Part shown: positions 5,864 through 19,085 of the stretch, piece after piece
How positions within the stretch are numbered: the stretch's first letter is position 1
Layout of the letters: every line of letters begins with the position of its first letter
Origin: Planctomycetota bacterium
Lineage (GTDB): Bacteria; Planctomycetota; Planctomycetia; Planctomycetales; Planctomycetaceae
Direction of reading: 5' to 3'
Assembly: GCA_018242565.1 (NCBI GenBank)
Contig: JAFEBR010000006.1
Span: 1 to 32,250 of the forward strand
DNA length: 32,250 nucleotides
Notes under the pieces: generated by a model
Seen by the model: the letters and a program-made list of their open reading frames with translations, nothing else
The model's database searches: none
Told to the model about the DNA's origin: nothing
Translations under genes and position numbers: made by a program

Positions 5864-7435
5864 TCAACCGATGCGATAGGTCTGCCTCAAGTCCTCGGCG
5901 ACCCGGTGCAGTGCCGTCAGTTTCTGCTCGGCGACCTGGGCCGTATTCACCGGGTTGTCGGCGAACGTCGCGAACCCGCAATCGGGATTCAGCAGCACGC
6001 GCTGGGGGCCAAATAGCTGTAGTGCCCGCTCGGCTTTCTGGCGAATCGCATCGACGGGTTCGACAGTTGTGGTTTTCGGGTTGATCACTCCCACGCCGAT
6101 TCTCAGCCTTTCGGGGAGACGCGCCAGCACTTCGAGTTCGCCCGCCCGGGGCGTACAGAGTTCGAGCATCACCGTGCCGACCTGAATCTGCTGCAGATAA
6201 GGGAGCAGCGGCACGTAATTGCCCGTCAGGGCCACGCTTTCGTCGCGCGACCAGTTGCCCCGGCAGATATGTAAAGCGGTGCGTTCCACTGGGGCCTGTG
6301 CGATGACCTGGTTCAGTAAGGTCCAGGCGAACTCCAGTTCGGTGGCCGGGTCACGTCGGGCTCCCAGGGCACCGCACATGAAGGTGCGGTTTTGCCGGGC
6401 GGGATGGAAGACGACTTCCGTCAGCACCTTCTAATCAACCTCCACCACCGAGACTCCCGCCGCCAGCAGAGCGAACAATTCTTCTCGCAGCACACGCACG
6501 ATGTCCGCTGCCAGCGCCTCGCGCGAGGCGTAAGCCCGATCCGAAATGCATTCCATCCACATTGTCCGAGTCAGCAGGTACGGGCCGGGCAAGGCGACTT
6601 TGACCGGCTGCGTCGAAATCGAGCGGACGAACCGCGCCTCATCGACCGCCAGCGGCCGACTGCGTCCCAGGGGGCCGAAGACGGCGGGGTGTCGTACGGT
6701 TTCCGCCGGTACGTCGAGCGACCGCAATTCACGCTCGAACTCGGCTGGATCCTCGACGTAGGGAAGCAGGTCGGTAATGGGAATCAACTGGCAGTTGTCG
6801 AGAATGCCCCCCACGAAACTCGCATAGCTGTCACGCCGTTGCTCGCCATCGGTCACGACATCGACACCGGCCCGTTCCTGCGCGGCGACGCACAGTCGCA
6901 CGGCGTCATTGGCGGCCTCTTGAAAGTCGGCTTCGGACATCCGGCCGGAGACGTGCTCGTGCATGGCCGTCAGCATCCAGCGCGGCCGGGGCCAACTGCC
7001 GATGCCCATGACCGATAAGGGACGAATGGCGGGGGCCGGTGCCGCGTCTGGCAGTCGCTCGGGAATCGTGATGGCCCGGGGGCTGGCCGGTAAGGGCATA
7101 GCGGTGCGGGCTGAATCCGTGACCTTGGCTGCGGGAACGCTGTCGCCGGCGGTGGGGCGCCCGGTGAAGGGGCCGGTGAAGGGGCCTTTGCTGACCAGAA
7201 AGCTTCGCTGCTCTCCCTCGCGGACGCACGAGAGCAGTTCGTTGCGGGTCATGCGGCACCACGCCGGCAGGTCTTCTTCGACCGACGATTCCTGCGATTT
7301 GATCTCGAGCAGTTGCCCCGGTTGCAGCGGGTCAATGTGCTTGCGGATCAACAGCAACAGGCCGTTGCCGCAGTCGAGCGTGCCGCCGTCGAACGACACG
7401 GCGGCGGGCCAGGAATGGCGCGGGACATACTGCAT
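5864..7435 (-). pseudogene. TusA-like / cobalamin-independent methionine synthase core fusion, interrupted by in-frame TAG
   Basis: Read from the ATG at 7435, the frame has 523 codons with a single TAG at 6431-6433 (codon 335). Both sides are in the same frame, so this is a nonsense codon, not a frameshift. Residues 13-70 are a TusA-like sulfurtransferase domain (LDCGNGLLLLI with Cys22; EDLPAWCRMT with Cys60). A Pro/Ala-rich linker follows, then from about residue 138 a MetE C-terminal-like (UROD/MetE) TIM barrel starting MGIGSWPRP. The usual zinc ligands are all present after the stop: His389 and Cys391 (HICRGNW), Glu425 and Cys486 (NPDCGF). A product ending at 334 would lack them. In relatives the stop site normally reads Asp-Glu-Pro; here it is GAT-TAG-AAG. 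The gene follows the DsrE-like gene by 70 bp. It may be a recent pseudogene, an assembly error, or a readthrough case. Confidence 0.75.
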
Positions 7436-7505
7436 GACTGGTGCACCGAGGCTTTCTCAAATCCGCGTGGGCGACATGCACCCGGGGCGCGGAGCGATCG
7501 GCGAT

Positions 7506-7868
7506 TTAGAACGAGACCGAGGCGGCGTCGTCCGAGAGAAACTCGACGAGACGGGCCCCGCCCACGATGGTGGCTCCGGCGACGAGTTTCTTTTCGTCCA
7601 GATTGCGGCGTTTGAAGCAGGGGGAGCAGACAAAAATCTGGCCTCCGCCGGCGGCGAAGTTGGCCATCAGTTCCTTCAGCGGGGCGAAACCGGCTTCGTG
7701 GATGTCGTCGGCGTAGCCTTGTTCAGCCAGTCGGACCCCTTCGGCCATCAGGAAGACCATGGTTTCCTTTTCGGAACCGAGGGCCGCATTGGCGATGACG
7801 AATCCGACCGTGGCTTTGTCCGTGTCATTCTTGGCATAGGTCTGGGTGACGCAAAATTTTCCGGCCAT
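7506..7868 (-). CDS. DsrE/DsrF-like sulfur-relay family protein
   Basis: This 120-residue cytoplasmic protein has the size and pattern of the DsrE/TusD-like fold: VTQTYAKNDTDKATVGFVIANAALG at the N-terminus, then ETMVFLMAEGVRLAEQGYADDI, and FVCSPCFKRRNL, which carries two cysteines in the position used by family members to bind persulfide sulfur. The start at 7868 is preceded by GAGGAAG on the coding strand. It lies between two TusA-like partners, 18 bp after the stand-alone TusA-like gene and 70 bp before the TusA-MetE fusion, which is the expected context for passing sulfur between small carriers. The final acceptor is not known. Confidence 0.85.
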   Translation of the reverse strand: MAGKFCVTQTYAKNDTDKATVGFVIANAALGSEKETMVFLMAEGVRLAEQGYADDIHEAGFAPLKELMANFAAGGGQIFVCSPCFKRRNLDEKKLVAGATIVGGARLVEFLSDDAASVSF

Positions 7869-7886
7869 GAGAGCTTCCTCGCGAGG

Positions 7887-8120
7887 TCAATGGGGTTTAC
7901 GTTCGAGCACGAATTCGGGGGGGGGCGCACTGAGCAGCCGATGTCCCGTCATGCGGCACCACGCCGGCAAATCCTCAGGCACGCCGGGGTCGTGGGCAAT
8001 GAGCACGAATTGGGTACCGCCTGGTAAGGGCTTCAGACGCTGGCGCAATTCCAAAATCAATTCGCCACAGCCCATCTGACCGGCATCCCACCGCAGGGGA
8101 GTAGCGTTCTCGGCTGTCAT
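7887..8120 (-). CDS. TusA-like sulfur carrier protein
   Basis: The 77-residue protein has the length of TusA. It carries the persulfide cysteine in GQMGCGELILELRQRL and a second Cys in EDLPAWCRMTGH, which corresponds to the DIPGFC region of E. coli TusA. The usual Cys-Pro motif is Cys-Gly here, as in the TusA part of the fusion protein downstream, so both belong to one TusA subfamily. I chose the ATG at 8120 because GGAAGG lies at 8127-8132 on the coding strand; an upstream GTG at 8153 has no such site. First gene of the minus-strand sulfur-relay operon. Confidence 0.8.
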   Translation of the reverse strand: MTAENATPLRWDAGQMGCGELILELRQRLKPLPGGTQFVLIAHDPGVPEDLPAWCRMTGHRLLSAPPPEFVLERKPH

Positions 8121-8763
8121 GTCGTGCCTTCCGTCAGATTCATTTCGTGTCACTCTTCGTCAGTGTATCGCAGCGCCCGAAAGTTCTGAAGGATTGGAAT
8201 TCATGAATCGCGATCAACGTGTCTCGATCGGACGCAGTCAGAGGACTCGTGTGTCACATTCGCCAGGTTGAAAACGAAAGAAATTCTGGATGAAGACTGG
8301 CTGTTCGTGGTTGGCGTCCGGCCGTTGACATGGCGAACCGCCGTGCCGTAGACTTCGGGCGTATGAATCGGGCTGGCAACTTCGGGATGGAAACACTGTG
8401 CACAGAAGCATTCTTAACCTGATGGATCTCCGGTGGCAGGCGCGCTGCGTCTCGCCGGGGTTCACCTGAATGCGTTCTGCCCTCTAACTGCGTGCCAGTT
8501 GTTCTCAACTTCTTTCTGGCTGCTCCGCGCCCCTGATTTTTGGCGTGGAGTGCATCTGGCCTCCCTGTGCCAATACCGGCTCGACCGGATGCTGATGCCC
8601 TGTCGCGGGTGATTCCGCGGCGTGCCAGAAATTTCGCAGACCTCGGCTGACCCGTGCTGGTCAGACTGGCTTCGCTCAGGGCGGGTTCCCCAGGTATCCC
8701 GCCGTTTCGCAGAGAATGTGCGTCTTCAAACCGAATTCCGTCTCCCCTCGACTGGAGAATCTT
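8121..8763. other. Divergent intergenic region
   Basis: About 640 bp between the minus-strand sulfur-relay operon and the plus-strand DUF1559 gene. Frames on either strand look like noise. A weak promoter-like pair facing the DUF1559 gene is present: TTGACA at 8325-8330, an 18-bp spacer, and TAGACT at 8349-8354. This would leave a leader of about 400 nt. I see no RNA gene or repeat. Confidence 0.35.
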
Positions 8764-9723
8764 ATGAAATCTCAGCGTACCCTGGTTCGTACTCCCCTGC
8801 GTCACTCGGTTGCTAGCCCGCGCGCCGCGTTCACGTTGATTGAACTGCTCGTCGTGATTGCGATTATCGCCGTGCTGGTCTCGTTGTTGTTGCCGGCCGT
8901 GCAGCAGGCCCGCGAGGCGGCTCGCCGCAGTCAATGCGCCAACAATCTGAAAGAGCTTGGCCTGGCGATCCATAATTTCGAAGAGGTACAGAAATCACTC
9001 CCCTCGAGCCGGATGGGACCGCAACATGCCACCTGGTTTGTGCAGATCCTGCCCTATATCGAACAGCCGGCGCTGTACAATCAATGGGACCTGAGTCGTC
9101 CGTATTACCTGCAGACGGCCGCTGTTCAGACGGCGCAAGTGCCGGTCTTTTACTGTCCGTCCCGGCGTTCGAGTCTGCTCAGCACCCAGTTCGAGGTGTC
9201 CAGCACCGGGGTGCCGGACACGAATCTGTACCCGGGGGCCATGGGGGACTACGCCGCCAATGGTGGTCAGTTCGCCGGTTCCATCGTCGATAATCCGCTG
9301 TGTAACGGCGCCATGTGCCAGGCGAATTCGCAGGTGAGCGGAAGTCAGATTGTGTCGACGACTTCGCGCACCAAAATGCGGGATTTTACCGACGGCACGA
9401 GCCAGACGTTTCTGGTGGGAGAAAAGCATGCCCCTGTGACGCGCTGGGGGCAGAGTGGTCCGACCTGGGGTGACGGAGCGATCTTCAATGGAGATTACCC
9501 CCGCAACTACAACCGGATCGCCGGCCTTCCCAAGTTCAATCTGGGACAAGGACCGAATGACCTCTCGGGGCCGTTCCATTGTAAATTCGGCAGCGATCAC
9601 ATCGGGATCTGCCAGTTCCTGTTCACCGATGGCCACGTCGCTTCGCTGAATAATTCGGTCGATCTGGATCTGCTGAATCGTCTGGCGGTTCGCAACGACG
9701 GTCGTGTGGTGGGAGATTTCTAA
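8764..9723 (+). CDS. DUF1559 pilin-like secreted protein
   Basis: This 319-residue protein has a type IV pilin/pseudopilin N-terminus: a short basic leader, then FTLIELLVVIAIIAVLVSLLL, with prepilin-peptidase-type cleavage expected before Phe and a single transmembrane helix. The conserved PAVQQAREAARRSQCANNLKQ/KELGLA block follows. The C-terminal DUF1559 part ends with HIGICQFLFTDGHVASLNNSVDL and NDGRVVGDF. Planctomycetes carry dozens of such proteins, and their role (surface or periplasmic fibre-like structures) is not settled. The start is the ATG at 8764 with GGAGA at 8754-8758. An upstream in-frame ATG at 8716 would place 16 extra residues before the leader. The lipoprotein gene starts 2 nt after its stop. 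Confidence 0.93.
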   Translation: MKSQRTLVRTPLRHSVASPRAAFTLIELLVVIAIIAVLVSLLLPAVQQAREAARRSQCANNLKELGLAIHNFEEVQKSLPSSRMGPQHATWFVQILPYIEQPALYNQWDLSRPYYLQTAAVQTAQVPVFYCPSRRSSLLSTQFEVSSTGVPDTNLYPGAMGDYAANGGQFAGSIVDNPLCNGAMCQANSQVSGSQIVSTTSRTKMRDFTDGTSQTFLVGEKHAPVTRWGQSGPTWGDGAIFNGDYPRNYNRIAGLPKFNLGQGPNDLSGPFHCKFGSDHIGICQFLFTDGHVASLNNSVDLDLLNRLAVRNDGRVVGDF

Positions 9724-9725
9724 CC

Positions 9726-10313
9726 GTGAACAGGCTGCTGCGCGGGAAATGCCTGGCCTGGCTGGCCCTGCTGTGCCTCGGCTGCGCTCCGGCCGCCGAG
9801 GTGGTGGACGATACGCCTCCACCAACCAGGGTCAGTACCGATTTCGCCCGACTGCCGGAACTCCTGGAAGGAATTACAGGATCGGGCCAGGTCGTGTTGT
9901 ATGAAGGTCTCCCCAGTCCATTCTGGGAGCCGCAGTTGCGCGACCAGGAACTCAACAGTGCCGACACGCGGCTTGTGCAGGGGCACCGGGTCTACGACAC
10001 GCCGCAAGACCCGTCGGCGGCCGATGGACCAAAGTTGACGGAGATCCTGTCGAGCAGCCAGAGCTATGCGCCGCTGGTTTCGGGAAGTCCGAAAACGTGT
10101 GGGGAATTTAATGTCGAGTTTTGTATCGAGTTCACCCATGGTTCAAAGATCACCCAGGTCCTGATTTGCCTGGAATGTGGCGAAGTGCTGCTCTTCGGCC
10201 CGGCGGGGGAACTTCATTGCCGGCTGTCGCCGGAATCCCTGAAGCTGTTGCCCCCCTTGTTAAAGCCCTATGAACAGGGGGAGAAAGGGGAGAATCCGTA
10301 TTCGAAAAACTGA
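9726..10313 (+). CDS. Hypothetical lipoprotein
   Basis: The 195-residue product starts with GTG at 9726, two bases after the DUF1559 stop. It has a short signal peptide ending in the lipobox LCLGC (Cys20), so the mature protein is likely lipid-anchored. The middle part contains KTCGEFNVEFCIEF and QVLICLECGEVLLFGP, with four cysteines that could pair or bind a metal. No family is recognised. Placement after a DUF1559 gene is common for small planctomycete lipoproteins and suggests a shared surface structure. Confidence 0.75.
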   Translation: MNRLLRGKCLAWLALLCLGCAPAAEVVDDTPPPTRVSTDFARLPELLEGITGSGQVVLYEGLPSPFWEPQLRDQELNSADTRLVQGHRVYDTPQDPSAADGPKLTEILSSSQSYAPLVSGSPKTCGEFNVEFCIEFTHGSKITQVLICLECGEVLLFGPAGELHCRLSPESLKLLPPLLKPYEQGEKGENPYSKN

Positions 10314-10560: not shown

Positions 10561-10896
10561 ATGAGCAGTAAAAGGTTTGTGCTGAATGCGGCACGATCAT
10601 CCCGGCAGGGGGCGCTCATCAACGTCGGAAAAGATTCCGATGAATATCAAGAGCTCACCAACTCGATGACGATGGCCGCCGAAGACATGGCGGAAATTGG
10701 ACTGGCGGAAGGTCAGTTCGCGATTGTTCGTACCGAGTTTGGCGAAGCCCGTTTTAAGTGCCAGTCGGGAAAGATCCCTCTCGGTATGATATTCATTGCT
10801 TACGGTCCGCCGACCTGCCGCTTGATGGGTGGCGATACCGATGGCACGGGCATGCCGACATCCAAGGGTTGGCAGGTCGAAGTTGTGCCGGAGTGA
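10561..10896 (+). CDS. fwdD: Formylmethanofuran dehydrogenase subunit D (molybdopterin dinucleotide-binding domain)
   Basis: This 111-residue protein matches FwdD/FmdD, the small subunit that completes the binding pocket for the bis-pterin Mo or W cofactor of the FwdB catalytic subunit. The diagnostic segment is at residues 71-107: IPLGMIFIAYGPP, then MGGDTDGTGMPTSKGWQVEV, close to the archaeal pattern with YGPW and TDGTGMPDFKG. Methylotroph Fhc complexes have no FwdD, so its presence argues for a redox-active complex here. It is the first gene of the operon, and the start at 10561 has only a weak ribosome binding site. Confidence 0.88.
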   Translation: MSSKRFVLNAARSSRQGALINVGKDSDEYQELTNSMTMAAEDMAEIGLAEGQFAIVRTEFGEARFKCQSGKIPLGMIFIAYGPPTCRLMGGDTDGTGMPTSKGWQVEVVPE

Positions 10897-11215: not shown

Positions 11216-12556
11216 ATGTCGCTTCAGGTTATTGAAAACGCCACCTGTACCTTCTGTGGCTGCGTCTGTGATGACATTCAACTGCATCACGACGACATGC
11301 GGATCCACAAGGCGAATCACGCGTGCGTGCTGGGGACGGCCTGGTTCTTGAACCACACGGCCGAGAAGAAGTATCCCGTCGCACTCGTGGACGGCCGCGA
11401 GGCGACACTGGATGAAGCGATTGAAGCCGCCGCGACGCACCTGCACGCGGCCGACATGCCGCTGGTGTACGGCATGAGCAACACGACCTGCGAAGCCCAG
11501 AAGCAATGTGTGGCGCTGGCCGACCAGCTTGGAGGGCTGCTCGACAGTCACACGTCGTTGTGACACGGTCCTACCGAAATCGCCGCCCAGTTGGGTGGTA
11601 AAGTCACTTGTACGCTGGGCGAAGTCAAACAGCGGGCGGATTTCATCATTTATTGGGGAGGAAATCCGGCGGAGTGCCATCCCCGGCACTTCACCAAATA
11701 CACCATCATGCAGAAAAGCCGGTTCTTGCCCCGTGGGCGCAAAGACCGAACGATGGTGCTCGTCGATATCCGGGAAACCAAGAGCGCCAAGGCCGCCGAC
11801 ATTTTTCTGCAGATTCGGCCCGGTAAAGATTTTGAACTGATTACCATTTTGCGAGCCCTGATTAAGGGGCAGCCGGTCGCGGACGAACAGATCGCCGAGA
11901 CGGGGCTGAGCCGGGCCGTCGTGGACGACCTGATCGCCCGCATGAAACGGGCGAAGTTTGGGTGCATGTTTTTCGGGATGGGTTTGTCGATGACTCGCGG
12001 CAAGCACATGAACAGCGCGGCGCTGCTGTGCCTGGCCGCGGAAATGAACGCCTTCACCAAGTTCGTGGCGATGCCGATGCGCGGCCACGGGAATGTGACC
12101 GGCGCCGACGTCATCATGCGCTGGCAGACCGGCTTTCCGTTCGGCATTTCCTTCAATCGCGGTTACCCGCGGTACAACCCAGGCGAATTTTCGACGGTGG
12201 ATGTCCTGGTTCGCGGAGACTGCGACGCGGCGTTCATCATCGGGGCCGATCCCGGGGCGACCATGCCGCAACCGGCTATCGATCATCTGGCCCGCATTCC
12301 CACAATCGTGCTCGACCCGCACGTGACGCATACGAGTCGGATTGCCCGCGTGCATATCACGACCGCGCCGCAGGGAATTGCCGCGCCGGGAACCGCCTAC
12401 CGCATGGATGAGTTGCCGATGCCGCTGAAGCCGGCGCTGAAATCGCCGTATCCCAGTGATGAAGAAGTTGTTCGTCGAATCAATGAGGCGATTGCCCGCA
12501 AGCCGTTCTGGCTGCCGGACGGTCGCCAGCCCCAGATGGTCGCCACGCTTGGCTGA
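11216..12556 (+). CDS. fwdB: Formylmethanofuran dehydrogenase subunit B, selenocysteine-containing (TGA at 11561-11563 read as Sec116)
   Basis: The frame from ATG 11216 to 12556 has 446 codons with one internal TGA at codon 116; both sides are in the same frame. FwdB is the Mo/W-pterin subunit that interconverts CO2 and formate before formyl transfer to methanofuran. Residues 11-37 hold CTFCGCVC plus HAC, the [4Fe-4S] cysteines. The TGA lies in H-T-S-L-TGA-H-G-P-T, exactly the metal-ligating Cys/Sec-His-Gly-Pro site of FwdB and of formate dehydrogenase FdhF; Cys118 is the ligand in the archaeal enzyme. Downstream landmarks are intact: WGGNPAECHPRH, RGHGNVTGAD (289-298) and the active-site region NRGYPRYNPGE (from 314). 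A SECIS-like hairpin follows the TGA. An ATG at 11216 is preferred to a GTG at 11204. Without Sec insertion the product would be a useless 115-residue fragment. Confidence 0.85.
11561..11606 (+). promoter_or_regulatory. Candidate bacterial SECIS element in fwdB
   Basis: A seven-pair stem, GCCGCCC (11582-11588) with GGGUGGU (11593-11599), including two G-U pairs, closes a four-base loop AGUU (11589-11592). The loop starts 25 nt after the UGA and has G as its second base followed by U. As I recall the bacterial consensus, this fits: loop 16-37 nt from the UGA and a G in the first two loop bases. In addition UGAC (11561-11564) pairs perfectly with GUCA (11603-11606) as a lower stem that includes the UGA, as in E. 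coli fdhF. Confidence 0.7.
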
Positions 12557-12559
12557 AGT

Positions 12560-14203
12560 ATGATACGAATTACGGGTGGCAAAGTTTACGATCCCGCCAA
12601 TGGCATCGATGGCGAAATCAAGGATCTGTGCATCGACGACCATGGGAAGTTTGTCGCTTCGGTGTCGGGTGGACGGACGATTGATGCCACTGGCATGATC
12701 ATCTTCCCCGGTGGGGTTGACGTCCATACGCACGTCGCTGGCGGGGCCATTAATTTTGCCCGGGCGATGACCCCCGAAGATCACCGTCGTACTCAGGCCT
12801 TCATGCGCACCAAGACTCGTCGCAGCGGGCTGGGGGGCATGGCGCCGACCACCTTTGCGACTGGCTATCTTTACGCCGGCATGGGGTGGACGACGGTCAA
12901 TGAAGCCGCCGTGCCGGTGCTGTCCGCCCGGCACACGCACGAAGAACTGGCCGACATCCCAATTGTGGACAAGGCCTCGCTGACCTTGATGGCCAACAAC
13001 GAGATCATGCTCGACCTGCTGGAGCAGGGGGAGTTCGAGCGGGCCAAGCAGGTCGTGGCCTGGTATCTGTGGGCCGCGAAATCGTATGGCATCAAGGCGG
13101 TCAGTCCGGGCGGCGTGGCCGCCTGGAAGTGGGGCAAAGACGCCAAGCAGTTGACGTCTCCGATCGCCGGTTACGACAAGCTCACGCCGGGAGATATTGT
13201 CACCCAGCTCGCCCGGATCTGCGATGAGATGGGTTTGCCCCATCCCATGCACCTGCACTGCAACAACCTGGGGGCGCCCGGCAATATTGCCACGACGCTC
13301 GACACGTTGAAGCACCTCGAAGGCCGGCGGGCGCACATCGCCCATTCGCAGTATCATGCCTATGGTGGCGATGGCTGGGACACAATGCGGTCGGAAACGA
13401 CGCAGCTCGCCGAGTATTTCAATACGCATCCCGGCATTACCACCGACGCGGGGGCGGTCGTGTTTGGCGACACGGTCACGATTACCGCGGACGGTCCCTG
13501 GCAGCACCTGTTGTATAAGCTCACCGGGCGCAAGTGGGGCAATCTGGATGTGGAAAACGAAACGGGCTGCGGCATTGTGCCGTACACCTATCGCCCGAGT
13601 AATCTCGTCAACGCGGTGCAGTGGGCCTGCGGGCTCGAATTGCTGCTGCTGATTCGCGATCCTTGGCAGGTGTTTCTGTCCACCGACCACCCCAATGGCG
13701 GCTGCTTCTGGCGCTATCCCGAGATCATTCAACTGCTGATGAATGCGGATGTGCGCAAGGAATGCCTGCAGAAAATTCCGGATCGCATCAAAAGCAGCAT
13801 GGTCCTGCCGGAAATCACTCGCGAATACACGCTGTCAGAGATCGCCGTGGCGATGTCGGCCGGTCCGGCTCGGGCCCTGGGGCTGAAAGAAAAGGGGAAC
13901 CTCGGGCTGGGTTGCGATGCCGATCTGGTCATTTACGAGTCGGACCCCGACGTTTTGAAGATGTTCGGCCACCCGCGATATGTGATTAAGGCGGGCGAAG
14001 TCGTCATTGAAGACGGCGACATTCGCGAAGCCCCGCAGGGGAAGGAGTTCCTCGTGAAGCCGGCTTACGATCCGGCGACCGACGAATTCATGCGCCCGCT
14101 GTTTGAAGATCATTACACGATGTCGTTTGAAAACTACCCTGTCGAATTTGAGCGGCTTGAGCATCCCGAGCTGCGCGACTGCATCCCCGTTACCGAGCGC
14201 TAG
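12560..14203 (+). CDS. fwdA: Formylmethanofuran dehydrogenase subunit A (amidohydrolase)
   Basis: The 547-residue protein is the FwdA/FhcA subunit, a dihydroorotase-like amidohydrolase with a binuclear metal site. In archaea it condenses formate, made in FwdB and passed through a tunnel, with methanofuran; in Fhc complexes it hydrolyses formylmethanofuran. Visible metal-site residues are His56 and His58 (DVHTHVAGG), Lys179 (GIKAVSPGG, the likely carboxylated lysine), His231/His233 (MHLHCNN), the HIAHSQYHAYGGDG block and Asp376 (STDHPNGG). Length is close to the family norm of about 550-570. It starts 3 bp after fwdB and has AAGT only weakly as a ribosome site, so coupling to fwdB translation is likely; Sec readthrough in fwdB would therefore also matter for fwdA expression. 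Confidence 0.95.
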   Translation: MIRITGGKVYDPANGIDGEIKDLCIDDHGKFVASVSGGRTIDATGMIIFPGGVDVHTHVAGGAINFARAMTPEDHRRTQAFMRTKTRRSGLGGMAPTTFATGYLYAGMGWTTVNEAAVPVLSARHTHEELADIPIVDKASLTLMANNEIMLDLLEQGEFERAKQVVAWYLWAAKSYGIKAVSPGGVAAWKWGKDAKQLTSPIAGYDKLTPGDIVTQLARICDEMGLPHPMHLHCNNLGAPGNIATTLDTLKHLEGRRAHIAHSQYHAYGGDGWDTMRSETTQLAEYFNTHPGITTDAGAVVFGDTVTITADGPWQHLLYKLTGRKWGNLDVENETGCGIVPYTYRPSNLVNAVQWACGLELLLLIRDPWQVFLSTDHPNGGCFWRYPEIIQLLMNADVRKECLQKIPDRIKSSMVLPEITREYTLSEIAVAMSAGPARALGLKEKGNLGLGCDADLVIYESDPDVLKMFGHPRYVIKAGEVVIEDGDIREAPQGKEFLVKPAYDPATDEFMRPLFEDHYTMSFENYPVEFERLEHPELRDCIPVTER

Positions 14204-14210
14204 TCTCGCC

Positions 14211-15023
14211 ATGCCGATCACATTCCATCTCAAACGACCGCCGACGGTCCCCCTCGAGGCAGAGGTTCTGTCGCCCGACGTCGTAGGCAGTCTGACCAAT
14301 TCCGAGATCCGCTCGCTGACCGTGTACCATGGCAAGCGCCAGTTGCCGTTGAGTGAGTTTTTTGACGTCGAGGGTGAACAGAGTGATGACCTGGTGTTCC
14401 ACGGCGCCCTGAACAAGGTTCGCTGGGTGGGGCGTGCCATGAGCCGGGGGAGCATCACCGTGCATGGTGACGTCGGGATGCACCTGGGCGCGCACATGTC
14501 CGGCGGCCGGATTGAAGTTCATGGCAATGCCAGTGACTGGGTCGGCGGTGAGATGAAAAAGGGGCTGATCCACGTGCATGGCAACGCGGGTGGACAAGTC
14601 GGGGCGGCGTATCGGGGATCGAATATCGGAATGAAAGATGGCGTGATCCTCGTCGATGGCTCGGCCGGGCTGGAAGTCGGCATGCGGATGCGCCGCGGGA
14701 CGATCGTCATTGGCGGGCCGGCTCGCGATTTTGTCGGGCTGCAGATGAAAGGGGGCACGATTGTGCTGCTGTCGGGGGCTGAAATTCGGACCGGCGCCTG
14801 GATGAACCGCGGCACCATCATTTCTCTCCAGCCGCTGCAACTGATGCCCACCTTTGCCTGCAGCGGGGTGCAGAATCCCGTATTCGTGAATCTCTATTCC
14901 CGGTTTCTGCAGTCTTGGGGAATTCACCTCCCGTTCGCGGCCAGCGAAGGGGTTTATCGGCAATACCGTGGCGATCTGGCCGTTTCGGCCAAGGGTGAAA
15001 TTCTGATCTGGCAGCCGGCTTAG
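14211..15023 (+). CDS. fwdC: Formylmethanofuran dehydrogenase subunit C
   Basis: This 270-residue protein is the FwdC/FhcC subunit, a right-handed beta-helix related to the GXGXG domain of glutamate synthase. It holds the assembly together and, in archaea and Fhc, helps bind the cofactor between subunits. The repeated turns are clear from about residue 80 to 190: GSITVHGDVGMHLGAHMSGG, IEVHGNASDWVGGEM, IHVHGNAGGQVG, ILVDGSAGLEVG and IVIGGPARDFVG. The start is the ATG at 14211, seven bases after the fwdA stop; the frame is open upstream only as shadow. No formyltransferase gene (ftr/fhcD) follows; the operon ends at a hairpin. Confidence 0.94.
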   Translation: MPITFHLKRPPTVPLEAEVLSPDVVGSLTNSEIRSLTVYHGKRQLPLSEFFDVEGEQSDDLVFHGALNKVRWVGRAMSRGSITVHGDVGMHLGAHMSGGRIEVHGNASDWVGGEMKKGLIHVHGNAGGQVGAAYRGSNIGMKDGVILVDGSAGLEVGMRMRRGTIVIGGPARDFVGLQMKGGTIVLLSGAEIRTGAWMNRGTIISLQPLQLMPTFACSGVQNPVFVNLYSRFLQSWGIHLPFAASEGVYRQYRGDLAVSAKGEILIWQPA

Positions 15024-15250: not shown

Positions 15251-15279
15251 TTGAGAATTTCGGAAAAAATTCTCAGAAT
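15251..15279 (+). promoter_or_regulatory. Inverted-repeat operator overlapping a candidate promoter of the ECF sigma operon
   Basis: TGAGAATTT (15252-15260) and AAATTCTCA (15267-15275) are perfect nine-base inverted copies with a six-base spacer. The dyad coincides with TTGAGA (15251-15256) and CAGAAT (15274-15279) spaced by 17 bp, a plausible sigma70-type promoter. A repressor bound here would block it. The start codon is about 150 bp downstream. Confidence 0.4.
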
Positions 15280-15429
15280 TCCTGTCATCAATCGGCCGCG
15301 CGGGTTAAGTGTAAGTGCGGCGTGTGTCTGTTGCGTTTCGCCGCAAGTTACCGGAAACCGCTGGTTGCCGAGCGCATCGCGGTCCGGGATGGCGGAGCTC
15401 CCGCGTGGGGCGTGGAATGGACGTGTGAT

Positions 15430-15954
15430 ATGGACGAACAGATTCGACAGGCGACGCGGCATTGGACACTGGCCCAACCGGTGGTGTCCGCGTTCATCCT
15501 GTCGCTCGTCCGCGATTTTTCGGCCCGCGATGATGTTCTGCAAGAGACGGCGGTCGCCGTGATTGAGTCGTTCGATCGTTACCAACCCGATCGGCCGTTT
15601 GTGGCCTGGGCCCTGGGAATTGCGCAGAACCAGGTCCGGCTGTACGTTCGCCGCCAGCACCGAGAACGGCTGGTCTTCGATGACGCTCTGGTGGCGCAAC
15701 TGGCGCAGGTTTTCGAAACCCTGCCCTCCGAGCCACGAACCGCGTTGGGGTATCTGCGGGAATGTCTGGGACACTTAGAGAACAAGGCTCGTGAGTTGTG
15801 CGAATTGCGTTACGGACGCGATTTGCGGCCTGCTGAAATCGCCGACACGGTGGGGATGTCGGCCAATGCAGTCGCCAAGGCTTTGCAGCGGATTCGCGAT
15901 CAGTTGCGTGCGTGCATTGAACGGAAGTCGGTCGTGGAAGGGAGTTCGCTATGA
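15430..15954 (+). CDS. ECF-type RNA polymerase sigma factor (planctomycete type)
   Basis: The 174-residue protein has the two-domain layout of extracytoplasmic-function sigma factors. Region 2 runs from about residue 15 to 75: VSAFILSLVRDFSARDDVLQETAVAVIESFDRYQPDRPFVAWALGIAQNQ, with the DDVLQET and FVAWALGIAQN core-binding and -10 motifs. Region 4 is near the C-terminus: CELRYGRDLRPAEIADTVGMSANAVAKALQRIRDQL, a helix-turn-helix for the -35 element. The ATG at 15430 gives normal family length. Its TGA overlaps the ATG of the next gene (ATGA at 15951-15954), the classic arrangement for a sigma factor and its membrane regulator. It probably directs transcription of the sulfatase genes downstream and of itself. 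Confidence 0.9.
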   Translation: MDEQIRQATRHWTLAQPVVSAFILSLVRDFSARDDVLQETAVAVIESFDRYQPDRPFVAWALGIAQNQVRLYVRRQHRERLVFDDALVAQLAQVFETLPSEPRTALGYLRECLGHLENKARELCELRYGRDLRPAEIADTVGMSANAVAKALQRIRDQLRACIERKSVVEGSSL

Positions 15955-16937
15955 CGTCTGGTTCTCCGGAACAGATCTGGCGTTATCTCGATGGCGAAAT
16001 GAGTGCCGACGAAGAGAGTCAATTCCAGGAATGGCTGCGTGCCTCGTCCGACAATGCCCGCGAATTTGCTCAAATCACCCTGTTGCACGATCGGTTGCGA
16101 ACGGAACACCTGCTCGATGCGGTGGTTTCGAGTGCCGCGCACGAATCTGCGGCCACCGCCGTGGTGGTCCGCCGACGGTCGCGTCCACTGGCATTCCTCG
16201 GGAGTCTGGCCGCTGCCGGAGCGGTGCTGCTGCTGCTCTGGCTGGGAATCGGCCGCACAACGGTTTCGGCCGCCAGTGAACTGGATCGCCTTCTGCGAGC
16301 CCAGAGCCAGGGGCCGGACAAAACATATGAAATTACGGTGGAGCGGGTGGCGGCACCCAGTCCGCGGCACACTGAGCGTGACCAGGAACACCGACCCCCG
16401 AAACCGTCGATCGACGGGGCGCTGTTGCACATTCGACAGGGAAATCAGTTCGTCCTCGTGCGCCAGTTGCCGAATGGCCAGCAGTTTCTCACGGGTTGTA
16501 ACGGGCAGGTGAGTTGGGCCATTCGGCCCGAGGGCCCGGTGCGAGTGAGCCAGGATTTATCGAGATTCAATCGGGATGTCCCGGGGCATGAGCAGGGCAT
16601 GCCGTTGTTTGACGTGGAGCATGATCTGGAACAGTTGCGAACCGCGTATGACGTGCAGTTACTGCCGGTGGAGAACGGTGATGATGCCGCGAGCGAGCAG
16701 GAACCCACTCGGTTGATCGTGGCCGTCAAAAAACGGGGATATCGCGGTCCACAGCGCGTGGAAATTGCCTATGCTGTTCGCTCGGGGCGGATTCACCAGT
16801 GGCGATTTGTCGATATGCCCTACGGTCCGGAACGCCTCACGTTGCGTCTGACGCTGACGGATGAAGCCCATCTGGGGCCGGCCTTCTTCGATCATGCCAC
16901 CCATCATGCCCCCGATCGCACCATTGCAGAGGAGTGA
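15951..16937 (+). CDS. Membrane anti-sigma-factor-like protein
   Basis: This 328-residue protein is coupled to the sigma factor gene. The N-terminal cytoplasmic part (residues 1-75) reads IWRYLDGEMSADEESQFQEWL, the short helical pattern of anti-sigma/FecR-type regulators, without the zinc-binding HxxxCxxC motif. One transmembrane helix spans residues 79-100 (PLAFLGSLAAAGAVLLLLWLGIG). The remaining 225 residues would be periplasmic and have an outer-membrane-lipoprotein-sensor-like beta-rich character (ITVERVAAP, LLHIRQGNQFVLVRQLPNGQQFLTGCNGQVSW), perhaps the sensor. I assign it from context and topology; no single named family is certain. Confidence 0.75.
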   Translation: MTSGSPEQIWRYLDGEMSADEESQFQEWLRASSDNAREFAQITLLHDRLRTEHLLDAVVSSAAHESAATAVVVRRRSRPLAFLGSLAAAGAVLLLLWLGIGRTTVSAASELDRLLRAQSQGPDKTYEITVERVAAPSPRHTERDQEHRPPKPSIDGALLHIRQGNQFVLVRQLPNGQQFLTGCNGQVSWAIRPEGPVRVSQDLSRFNRDVPGHEQGMPLFDVEHDLEQLRTAYDVQLLPVENGDDAASEQEPTRLIVAVKKRGYRGPQRVEIAYAVRSGRIHQWRFVDMPYGPERLTLRLTLTDEAHLGPAFFDHATHHAPDRTIAEE

Positions 16938-16940
16938 ACC

Positions 16941-17669
16941 ATGAGAGACTTTCGGCGCATCACGTTGGCTCTGCTGTCCGTACTGGCGCTTGGGTACTGG
17001 GCTGTTGGCCAGGACCGCAAGGGGGCGGCCAAAGACAAAGTTCGTAAGCCACAGATGAGCGATACGATCAAGGCCAATATGTACGCCGACAACTGGTTCA
17101 TGCTCTACATCAATGGCGAACTGGTCGCCGTCGATTCCATCAAGTTCATTCCGCACAATGTGGTGTCGGTCGATATTCTACCCAGTTACCCCATGACGAT
17201 TGCCGTGCTGGCCAAAGATAACGCCGATCCGAAAACCGGTATGGAGTATGCGAATACGAATATCGGCGACGCCGGGTTCGTTTTGAAATTTGGTGACGGT
17301 ACGGTGACGAACGCGCGCTGGAAAGCGAAACGGTTTTCCTGGGGGCCCATCGATCACGACACGAAAAATCCGCGGGTCGAGAACCTGCCCCTACCCGACA
17401 ACTGGTATGCCGTCGATTTCGACGATTCGGCGTGGGGATTTGCCCGCGAATACACCGAAGACCAGGTGGGGCCCAAACCGCCGTTCTATGAACATGATTT
17501 CCAGGGGGCCCGCTTCATCTGGACAGACGACATTGAACTCGACAATACGGTCATCTTCCGCTTCGTCGTGAAATCGCCGCCGGACGGTAAAGCACGCCCC
17601 GATTTTTCCAATCTGAACAACTTGGTTCCTGACCAACCGCCGCGGGGCGGAAAGAAAAAGCCTCGCTGA
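16941..17669 (+). CDS. Secreted protein of unknown function with galactose-binding-like segments and basic tail
   Basis: A 242-residue exported protein (signal peptide ITLALLSVLALGYWAVGQ). It starts 3 bp after the previous stop, with GAGGAG at 16929-16934. The body reads MYADNWFMLYINGELVAVDS, then GDAGFVLKFGDGTVTNARWKAK and PLPDNWYAVDFDDSAWGFAREY, then ARFIWTDDIELDNTVIFRF. This is the arrangement of galactose-binding-like (carbohydrate-binding) folds seen in many extracellular proteins, with a W-containing sugar-contact-like DDSAW. The end is a Gly/Lys/Arg tail (PRGGKKKPR), like those of both sulfatases in this operon. Function is not known. Confidence 0.8.
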   Translation: MRDFRRITLALLSVLALGYWAVGQDRKGAAKDKVRKPQMSDTIKANMYADNWFMLYINGELVAVDSIKFIPHNVVSVDILPSYPMTIAVLAKDNADPKTGMEYANTNIGDAGFVLKFGDGTVTNARWKAKRFSWGPIDHDTKNPRVENLPLPDNWYAVDFDDSAWGFAREYTEDQVGPKPPFYEHDFQGARFIWTDDIELDNTVIFRFVVKSPPDGKARPDFSNLNNLVPDQPPRGGKKKPR

Positions 17670-17696
17670 TCGTTCCCCTTTCGGAGACTGGCTCAC

Positions 17697-19085
17697 ATGA
17701 AATTCCTGATCGGAGTTCTGGCAATACTGGCCGGGGTACCGGCGGTCGCCGCCGATCGTCCCAACATCATTTTGATGCTGGCCGACGACCAGGGCTGGAA
17801 TGGCCTGTCGGTTCGCATGCATCCCGATCGGGCGGAATCGCGAGGCGACATGTACCACACACCCCACCTGGAGCGCCTGGCGGCACAGGGGATGCGGTTT
17901 TCTCAAGCGTATGCCCCGGCGCCGGTCTGTTCGCCATCGCGGATCAGTATTCAGACAGGGCGCAGTCCCGCCGCACTGCATTGGACCAAAGCGGCCCCTC
18001 CCGAAGCGGGGCACAAGCTCAGCGAACCCCGCAACATCAAGCAGATTGCGGATCGCGAAGTCACGATTGGCGAGTTGTTGCGCCGGGCCGGGTACGCGAC
18101 GGCGCATTATGGAAAATGGCACATCAACGGCGGCGGTCCCGGACAGCACGGGTATGACGAATCCGATGGCGACACGGGCAACGAGCAGGCGTTTGAGTTC
18201 AAGGATCCCAACCCGGTCGATATTTTCGGCATGGCGGAGCGTGCCGAACGGTTCATGGCGAAATGCGCCCGCGCCGGCCAACCGTTCTACATTCAGTTGT
18301 CGTGGAATGCGCTCCATGCTTCGCAAAACGCGCTGCAGGCCACACGCGCGAAATACGAACAGAAGCTGGGGGCCCGAGATTCCAAGCGAGCGGACGTCGC
18401 GGCGATCACCGAGGATCTTGATACCGGCGTCGGTCGGGTACTGGATTCCATCGAACGCCTGGGGCTGACGGGCAACACGTACGTCATTTACACGTCTGAC
18501 AACGGTGCCGGCGGTGGAAAAAAGCTCCTGCACGGTGGTAAAGGCGACGTCTATGAAGGAGGGATTCGCGTCCCGTTGATCGTCCGCGGGCCGGGGGTCA
18601 AACCGAACTCGTTCTCGAGCACCCCTGTGGTGGGTTACGACTTTCTCCCCACGTTTTGCGAGTGGGCCGGGTTGCCTCGGTCGGCGGTGCCTGCCGAAGT
18701 TGAAGGGGGCAGTTTTACGGCGCTGCTGGCCCAGAACGGCCAGGGGGCTGTCCAGCGCCCCCGCGAAGAACTCGTGTTTCATTTTCCACACTACCAGGGA
18801 GACACACCGCACTCGGCCATCCTGCTGGGCAACCTGAAGCTCATGCATTTCTACGAAGATGACCGTTACGAACTCTACGACCTCGGCCAGGATCTCAGCG
18901 AACGCCATAACATCGCCGCGGAACGCCCTGCCGAGACACGCCGGTTGAGTGAACGGCTGCAAAAGTACCTGGCTGCGGTTGATGCCCAACTCCCCCCACC
19001 GAACCCGGATTTTGATCCCAATCGTCCGGCAGAACCGCGGAAACGTGGGGGCAAAAACAAGCCAGAGAAACCCCGAAAATCATGA
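17697..19085 (+). CDS. Secreted formylglycine sulfatase
   Basis: This 462-residue exported protein (signal peptide FLIGVLAILAGVPAVAAD) is an arylsulfatase-type enzyme that hydrolyses sulfate esters, here likely on polysaccharides. Asp30 and Asp31 in LADDQGWN are metal ligands. Cys78 in CSPSRISIQTGR is the residue converted to formylglycine. YGKWHING has the usual Lys and His, and SDNGAGGGKK gives the remaining metal ligands and a Lys. GGSDNG-type C-terminal features and LYDLGQDLSERHN are typical. GGAG lies at 17683-17686. The C-terminus carries NPDFDP and then a Lys/Arg-rich tail. A formylglycine-generating enzyme must act in trans; none is seen in the window. Confidence 0.94.
   Translation: MKFLIGVLAILAGVPAVAADRPNIILMLADDQGWNGLSVRMHPDRAESRGDMYHTPHLERLAAQGMRFSQAYAPAPVCSPSRISIQTGRSPAALHWTKAAPPEAGHKLSEPRNIKQIADREVTIGELLRRAGYATAHYGKWHINGGGPGQHGYDESDGDTGNEQAFEFKDPNPVDIFGMAERAERFMAKCARAGQPFYIQLSWNALHASQNALQATRAKYEQKLGARDSKRADVAAITEDLDTGVGRVLDSIERLGLTGNTYVIYTSDNGAGGGKKLLHGGKGDVYEGGIRVPLIVRGPGVKPNSFSSTPVVGYDFLPTFCEWAGLPRSAVPAEVEGGSFTALLAQNGQGAVQRPREELVFHFPHYQGDTPHSAILLGNLKLMHFYEDDRYELYDLGQDLSERHNIAAERPAETRRLSERLQKYLAAVDAQLPPPNPDFDPNRPAEPRKRGGKNKPEKPRKS

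Follow-up and report, generated by a model that had tools for sequence, protein, structure and literature searches.

A probable selenocysteine-containing formylmethanofuran dehydrogenase subunit in Planctomycetota and its apparent exchange with a cysteine form among close relatives

The fwdB gene of a Planctomycetota bacterium (contig JAFEBR010000006.1), located in the 32,250-nt stretch of DNA analyzed here (hereafter the window), contains an in-frame TGA, which raises the question of whether this codon ends the protein or is read as selenocysteine (Sec). Under the standard code, the gene is divided into two ORFs of 119 and 321 amino acids. When read through, it encodes a 446-residue product with one internal TGA, at codon 116 (HTSL-U-HGPTEIAAQ). 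In NCBIfam searches, this product matched TIGR03129 (formylmethanofuran dehydrogenase subunit B) with 494-498 bits for a cut-off of 327.8, and residues 8-425 covered positions 1 to 420 of the 421-position model, that is, its full length. The [4Fe-4S] cysteines C11, C14, C18, and C37 were all intact, and the putative U116 is followed by H117, as expected together with the N-terminal cysteines for the FwdB/FmdB family. A phmmer comparison with PDB sequences aligned residue 116 with Cys118 (SVCHGPS) of Methanothermobacter wolfeii FwdB (5t5i_B) and with a non-standard residue, X, in the SVXHGPS motif of 9sfi_Q, which is consistent with Sec in the latter. According to a 2024 review (PMC11656701), subunit B of these enzymes ligates the Mo/W through a Cys, which can be Sec; the other ligands are a sulfido group and four dithiolene sulfurs. 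We relied on these PDB sequence alignments because an AlphaFold model of FwdB, built with ten close sequences, was unusable (pLDDT 39.5). An earlier note on this DNA had described a single TGA at the Cys/Sec metal-ligand site of an otherwise open frame, intact iron-sulfur cysteines and two conserved halves, and had predicted that automatic annotation would split the gene; the read-through, the alignment with 5t5i_B, the full-length family match, and the two standard-code ORFs bore out each of these points. The features of the operon are presented in Table 1.

Table 1. Features of the fwd operon, in positions of the window.
Feature	Position	Strand	Evidence
fwdD, molybdopterin-dinucleotide-binding subunit predicted to complete the FwdB cofactor site	10561..10896	+	PF01568 Molydop_binding; NF042908
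fwdB, probable selenoprotein, Sec codon 116, 446 aa	11216..12556	+	TIGR03129, 498 bits
Probable UGA selenocysteine codon (116), Mo/W ligand position	11561..11563	+	TGA conservation; alignment with 5t5i_B and 9sfi_Q
SECIS-like hairpin GCCGCCC-AGUU-GGGUGGU, loop 11589-11592	11582..11599	+	Fold, synonymous constraint, kept pairs
fwdA, amidohydrolase subunit (formyl-carrier condensation/hydrolysis)	12560..14203	+	TIGR03121, 665 bits
fwdC	14211..15023	+	TIGR03122, 266 bits

To examine the codon in relatives, we used a sample of 150 genomes from the same family and a species-level collection of genomes, which supplied 72 named loci. A homologue with 70-100% identity and exactly one TGA was found in 28 of the 150 family genomes. 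In total, the clade yielded 98 informative loci with 75 distinct coding sequences, a count that includes some genomes twice and leaves aside the fragment L119, which ends short of codon 116. In every one of these loci, the codon was TGA and there was no other internal stop. This uniformity excludes chance or a sequencing error as the origin of the TGA. The loci carry the labels Pirellulaceae/Pirellulales, Gemmataceae, Isosphaera, Fuerstiella, and others, and one of them belongs to the complete genome of an isolate (L104, strain K23_9, CP036526.1). A phylum-wide sample added six members from distant families in other classes, all with TGA. The nearest homologues outside the clade, a sister group designated Cys-A (53-61% identical), have TGC or TGT at codon 116. 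The alternation of TGA with TGC/TGT proposed earlier as a check was therefore observed between the Sec clade and its sister clade, but not inside the Sec clade, where the codon is always TGA. One Cys-A genome (G019) was considered as an independent case of Sec and rejected, as its frame is open, codon 116 is TGT, and its TGA is the end stop. Within the Sec clade, 26% of the differing codons downstream of the UGA changed the residue vs 37% upstream, the downstream changes being mostly synonymous.

Some labels in this collection call for caution. Contigs titled Candidatus Kuenenia stuttgartiensis (L100, L111, L125) carry Sec-fwd operons 73-83% like those of Pirellulales/Gemmatales, and the names of these metagenome-assembled genomes appear doubtful. 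Locus L120 (QHWF01000065.1), labelled Acidobacteria gp6, has a Sec-fwdB match at 8001-9128 (74%) with fwdD, and upstream of it fae and an MfnD-like ATP-grasp gene. Either the genes left Planctomycetota by transfer, or the bin is misplaced.

We then investigated the presence of the Sec machinery in the genome, which is a 1252-contig assembly. A tRNA-Sec with anticodon TCA (UCA) was identified (71 bits), and contig C873 harbored selB (328.8 bits, joined), selA (493 bits), and selD (387 bits), so that the four genes whose presence the earlier note had proposed to verify (selA, selB, selD, selC) were all found. Among the family genomes, selA exceeded its cut-off in 27 of the 28 with Sec-fwdB vs 38 of the 122 others (Fisher p=7e-11, a test that ignores phylogeny), and the 28th (G005) has a piece of selA at a contig edge. 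The sel genes were also found within 10 kb of the Sec-fwd operon in L073 and L114/L130, and selD lies approximately 1 kb downstream of fwdC in L116. When this genome was searched for formate dehydrogenases, the sole TGA-bearing match was fwdB itself, so that none with an internal TGA was detected.

In bacteria, the consensus SECIS is a hairpin directly downstream of the UGA with a G opening a small apical loop. The predicted fold following codon 116 contains a hairpin of 7 bp (18 nt long) that starts 18 nt after the UGA, with an AGUU loop whose G is 27 nt after the UGA. It fits this consensus, with which it was compared directly. The lowest synonymous variation of fwdB was observed in codons 121-130, the four best 7-codon windows having a relative entropy of 0.40-0.48 vs a gene mean of 0.90. 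CAG 125 and TTG 126 were invariant in the 75 distinct sequences, while TTG represents 22% of the Leu codons elsewhere. The third positions of Ala 123, Ala 124, and Gly 127 were nearly only C or U, which pair with an opposite G, and L117 presented a compensatory U-A pair in place of the C-G or U-G of the other sequences. The hairpin was part of the minimum free energy fold of 68 of the 75 sequences vs 24% of synonymous shuffles. Total folding energy was rejected as evidence (z -1.46 here, mean z -1.16), as two control windows were about equally low, and an Rfam search of the operon, hairpin included, matched no RNA family; the case rests on the local hairpin and the synonymous constraint. From its position and constraint, we infer that the hairpin is probably a bacterial SECIS.

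The gene is part of an operon with the order fwdD-fwdB-fwdA-fwdC, often with ftr in front. The fwdD product matched PF01568 with 28.7 bits, above the gathering score, and the FwdD model NF042908 with E=4e-18, under the cut-off of that exception-level model. The fwdC ORF is listed from 14103, and its start is likely the ATG at 14211 because the family match begins at residue 39. We examined the surroundings of Sec-fwdB in the 75 loci, of which several are truncated by the end of a contig: 66 had fwdD on the upstream side, 61 had fwdA and 57 had fwdC on the downstream side, and 22 had ftr nearby, mostly immediately upstream. Elsewhere in the genome, ftr and mch were over their cut-offs and fae reached 115.9 bits (cut-off 118); in L120, fae is approximately 7 kb upstream of Sec-fwdB. 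Because of these pathway genes, we assign the predicted Sec-FwdB enzyme to the H4MPT/formyl-carrier C1 pathway. Near the operon, we recognized no electron-transfer subunit (FwdF/FwdG-like).

Of note, a block at 5864-10313 of the window contains a TusA-MetE fusion gene, DsrE, TusA, a DUF1559 pilin-like gene, and a lipoprotein gene. The block recurs, rearranged, beside the Sec-fwd operon in L114/L130, there with selD-selB-selA, and in very few of the 75 loci overall. One weaker match, limited to TusA-MetE, was found in L094. We dropped TusA/DsrE/MetE as a functional partner of the operon since the linkage is limited to the window and one genome (L114/L130). The TusA-MetE gene (5864-7435, minus strand) carries an in-frame TAG at 6431-6433, and its uninterrupted relative in L130 (8868-10445) has Glu at this position. 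A second recoding event was rejected, the codon being TAG and not TGA and the relative having Glu, and the gene is either a pseudogene or affected by an assembly error in this genome.

Could the TGA of fwdB be explained without Sec? Lone in-frame stops in draft assemblies often turn out to be errors, and the neighboring TusA-MetE gene does carry an in-frame stop, which would suit a nonsense mutation or sequencing error in an fwdB pseudogene. However, the same TGA comes from many separate assemblies, the complete isolate genome included, with purifying selection persisting past it and with the synonymous constraint strongest directly after it. The conserved TGA already refutes this reading, to which we attach practically no probability. 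Alternatively, UGA could be a true stop followed by re-initiation, for example at TTG 126 (11591), to give a two-piece FwdB deprived of its metal ligand. TTG is a possible start codon and this one is invariant, but by eye no ribosome-binding sequence precedes it, and the constraint that extends to CAG 125 and to the pyrimidine-ending codons 123, 124, and 127 fits base pairing rather than a start codon. Moreover, the Cys-A proteins are unsplit with Cys at the position, and re-initiation leaves the association with selA unexplained. We therefore consider it very unlikely. Decoding of UGA as Cys or Trp, through a changed code or a suppressor tRNA, would agree for Cys with the residue of the sister clade. 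Yet TGA serves as the ordinary stop of fwdB and of other genes in the window, and the genome encodes both a UCA-anticodon tRNA-Sec and the full sel gene set, which makes this explanation more improbable still.

The remaining alternative concerns function, namely that the protein is a scaffold of the FhcB type in a non-redox, formate-making formyltransferase/hydrolase complex, in which Sec would be incidental. FhcB is a homologue of FwdB from the same H4MPT/methylofuran pathway, the methylotroph protein being a scaffold without Mo/W cofactor (PMC10100899), and Planctomycetota have FhcB-like proteins as well (B-type, 26-47% identity). At the search sensitivity used, fwdD, fwdA, and fwdC were not detected around the B-type homologues examined, whose ligand position is Cys, Gly, Ser, Phe, or a gap. 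In contrast, where fwdD was seen, this position was always U or C, and the Cys-A fwdB adjoins fwdD and fwdA in most loci examined. Such a distribution would follow if fwdD were the mark of the redox form and the B-type proteins belonged to a hydrolytic Fhc complex. An FhcB would have lost the Mo/W ligand and cofactor, whereas the Sec clade always has U at the ligand position and retains FwdD and the Fe-S cysteines; were the Sec incidental, it would not persist in every relative. A scaffold role is thus unlikely, if less so than the three explanations above, and the operon together with fae, mch, and ftr indicates a predicted redox formylmethanofuran dehydrogenase rather than a cofactor-less scaffold. 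Several FhcB-type homologues (L152/L188 of G001, L190, L191, L192, L194, L195) have Gly or Ser at the former ligand position, an apparent decay of the site in loci whose fwdD search was negative or that the search did not cover.

Taken together, the codon, its conservation, the machinery, the hairpin signal, the operon, and the pathway genes, all read from sequence, make it very probable that the gene encodes a Sec-containing FwdB, the Mo/W catalytic subunit of a bacterial formylmethanofuran (or methylofuran) dehydrogenase, with UGA codon 116 read as Sec. We infer Sec insertion itself, as well as the metal, the direction, and the electron acceptor. SelB carrying Sec-tRNA(UCA) would bind the hairpin just 3' of the UGA in the fwdB mRNA and deliver Sec in place of termination. 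FwdB and FwdD would hold a bis-PGD cofactor between them, with Sec116 as a ligand of its Mo or W. FwdB would interconvert formate and CO2, while FwdA, the amidohydrolase, and FwdC would exchange formate with the formyl carrier. Since ftr, mch, and fae are in the genome, the complex would most likely run oxidatively, as the final step of H4MPT-linked formaldehyde/C1 oxidation.

To determine how the Sec and Cys forms are distributed, we compared their occurrence in the 150 family genomes. Sec-fwdB was present in 28 and Cys-A in 65, and both co-occurred in a single genome vs 12 expected (p=4e-7, ignoring phylogeny), in which the Cys-A copy is truncated. Five genus groups hold both forms, each in different species, and selA was found in 32 of 64 Cys-A genomes. 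The two forms appear to be functional substitutes. In the maximum-likelihood tree, the Sec clade was monophyletic (100/100) and sister to Cys-A (88/82), and the archaeal FwdB, including the Sec-like 9sfi, formed a separate clade (100/100); the tree gives no direction of change between Cys and Sec. Directly downstream of the Sec-fwd operon, L130 has a truncated Cys-A-type fwdB and a second fwdA (15256-16167 and 16337-17998), which may be the remnant of a replaced Cys operon.

A selenium-dependent FwdB was reportedly described by Vorholt and colleagues in 1997 from Methanopyrus kandleri, and archaeal FwdB exists as Sec and Cys isoenzymes. The archaeal Sec enzymes have Sec at the same ligand position and the same subunits (FwdD, A, B, C), but they belong to the separate clade, and their Sec and Cys isoenzymes coexist whereas the Sec and Cys-A forms alternate between species. 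SECIS placement also differs between archaea and bacteria, and the hairpin found here, inside the coding sequence right after the UGA, has the bacterial arrangement. With the bacterial Sec formate dehydrogenases (FdhF/FdnG), the protein shares the Mo/W-bisPGD superfamily, the U-H-x-P motif, and a bacterial SECIS-like element downstream of the UGA. However, those enzymes fuse the cofactor-closing domain, which here is the separate FwdD, and our FwdB is far under the cut-off of the formate dehydrogenase model.

In bacteria, Kim et al. (2016; PMC4807772) reported an fmdB selenoprotein in Rhodopirellula sp. P2 and in a Lake Washington fosmid. The earlier note was thus mistaken in stating that no Sec version had been described in a planctomycete, and the basic discovery of planctomycete Sec-FwdB is not new. 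As far as its published description goes, on which our comparison is based, that study predicted planctomycete/bacterial Sec-FwdB from UGA, homology, and SECIS, with the order fmdD-fmdB-fmdA-fmdC also seen here, and presented a few bacterial cases and a tree. Relative to that description, the phylum-wide fixation of Sec, the synonymous constraint and SECIS-like signal, the association with selA, and the Sec/Cys exclusion between close relatives are new. Elsewhere in the literature, Sec-FwdB is treated as a methanogen trait in a review (PMC13188914), one study found no bacterial FwdB (PMC7331816) and a later one did (PMC10100899), and fwdD has been stated to be absent from Planctomycetes (PMC5020050).

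The Sec-fwdDBAC operon is conserved across several planctomycete families and classes, and standard annotation breaks its fwdB in two, so that the annotation of about a hundred genomes is corrected here. By implication, many planctomycetes could interconvert CO2 and the formyl carrier by redox chemistry, and the matched Sec and Cys enzymes would allow the benefit of selenium at a Mo/W site to be tested. We give somewhat better than even chances to a broader proposal, in which Planctomycetota as a phylum rely on a redox formylmethanofuran dehydrogenase for the final step of H4MPT-linked C1 oxidation. The Sec form of this enzyme would be fixed in one ancient lineage, and close relatives would have exchanged it, gene for gene, for a Cys form or the reverse. 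If true, these bacteria would provide, within a bacterial Mo/W C1 enzyme, a natural series of Sec/Cys exchanges, and the Fwd complex may be a main client that keeps the Sec machinery in genomes without a Sec formate dehydrogenase.
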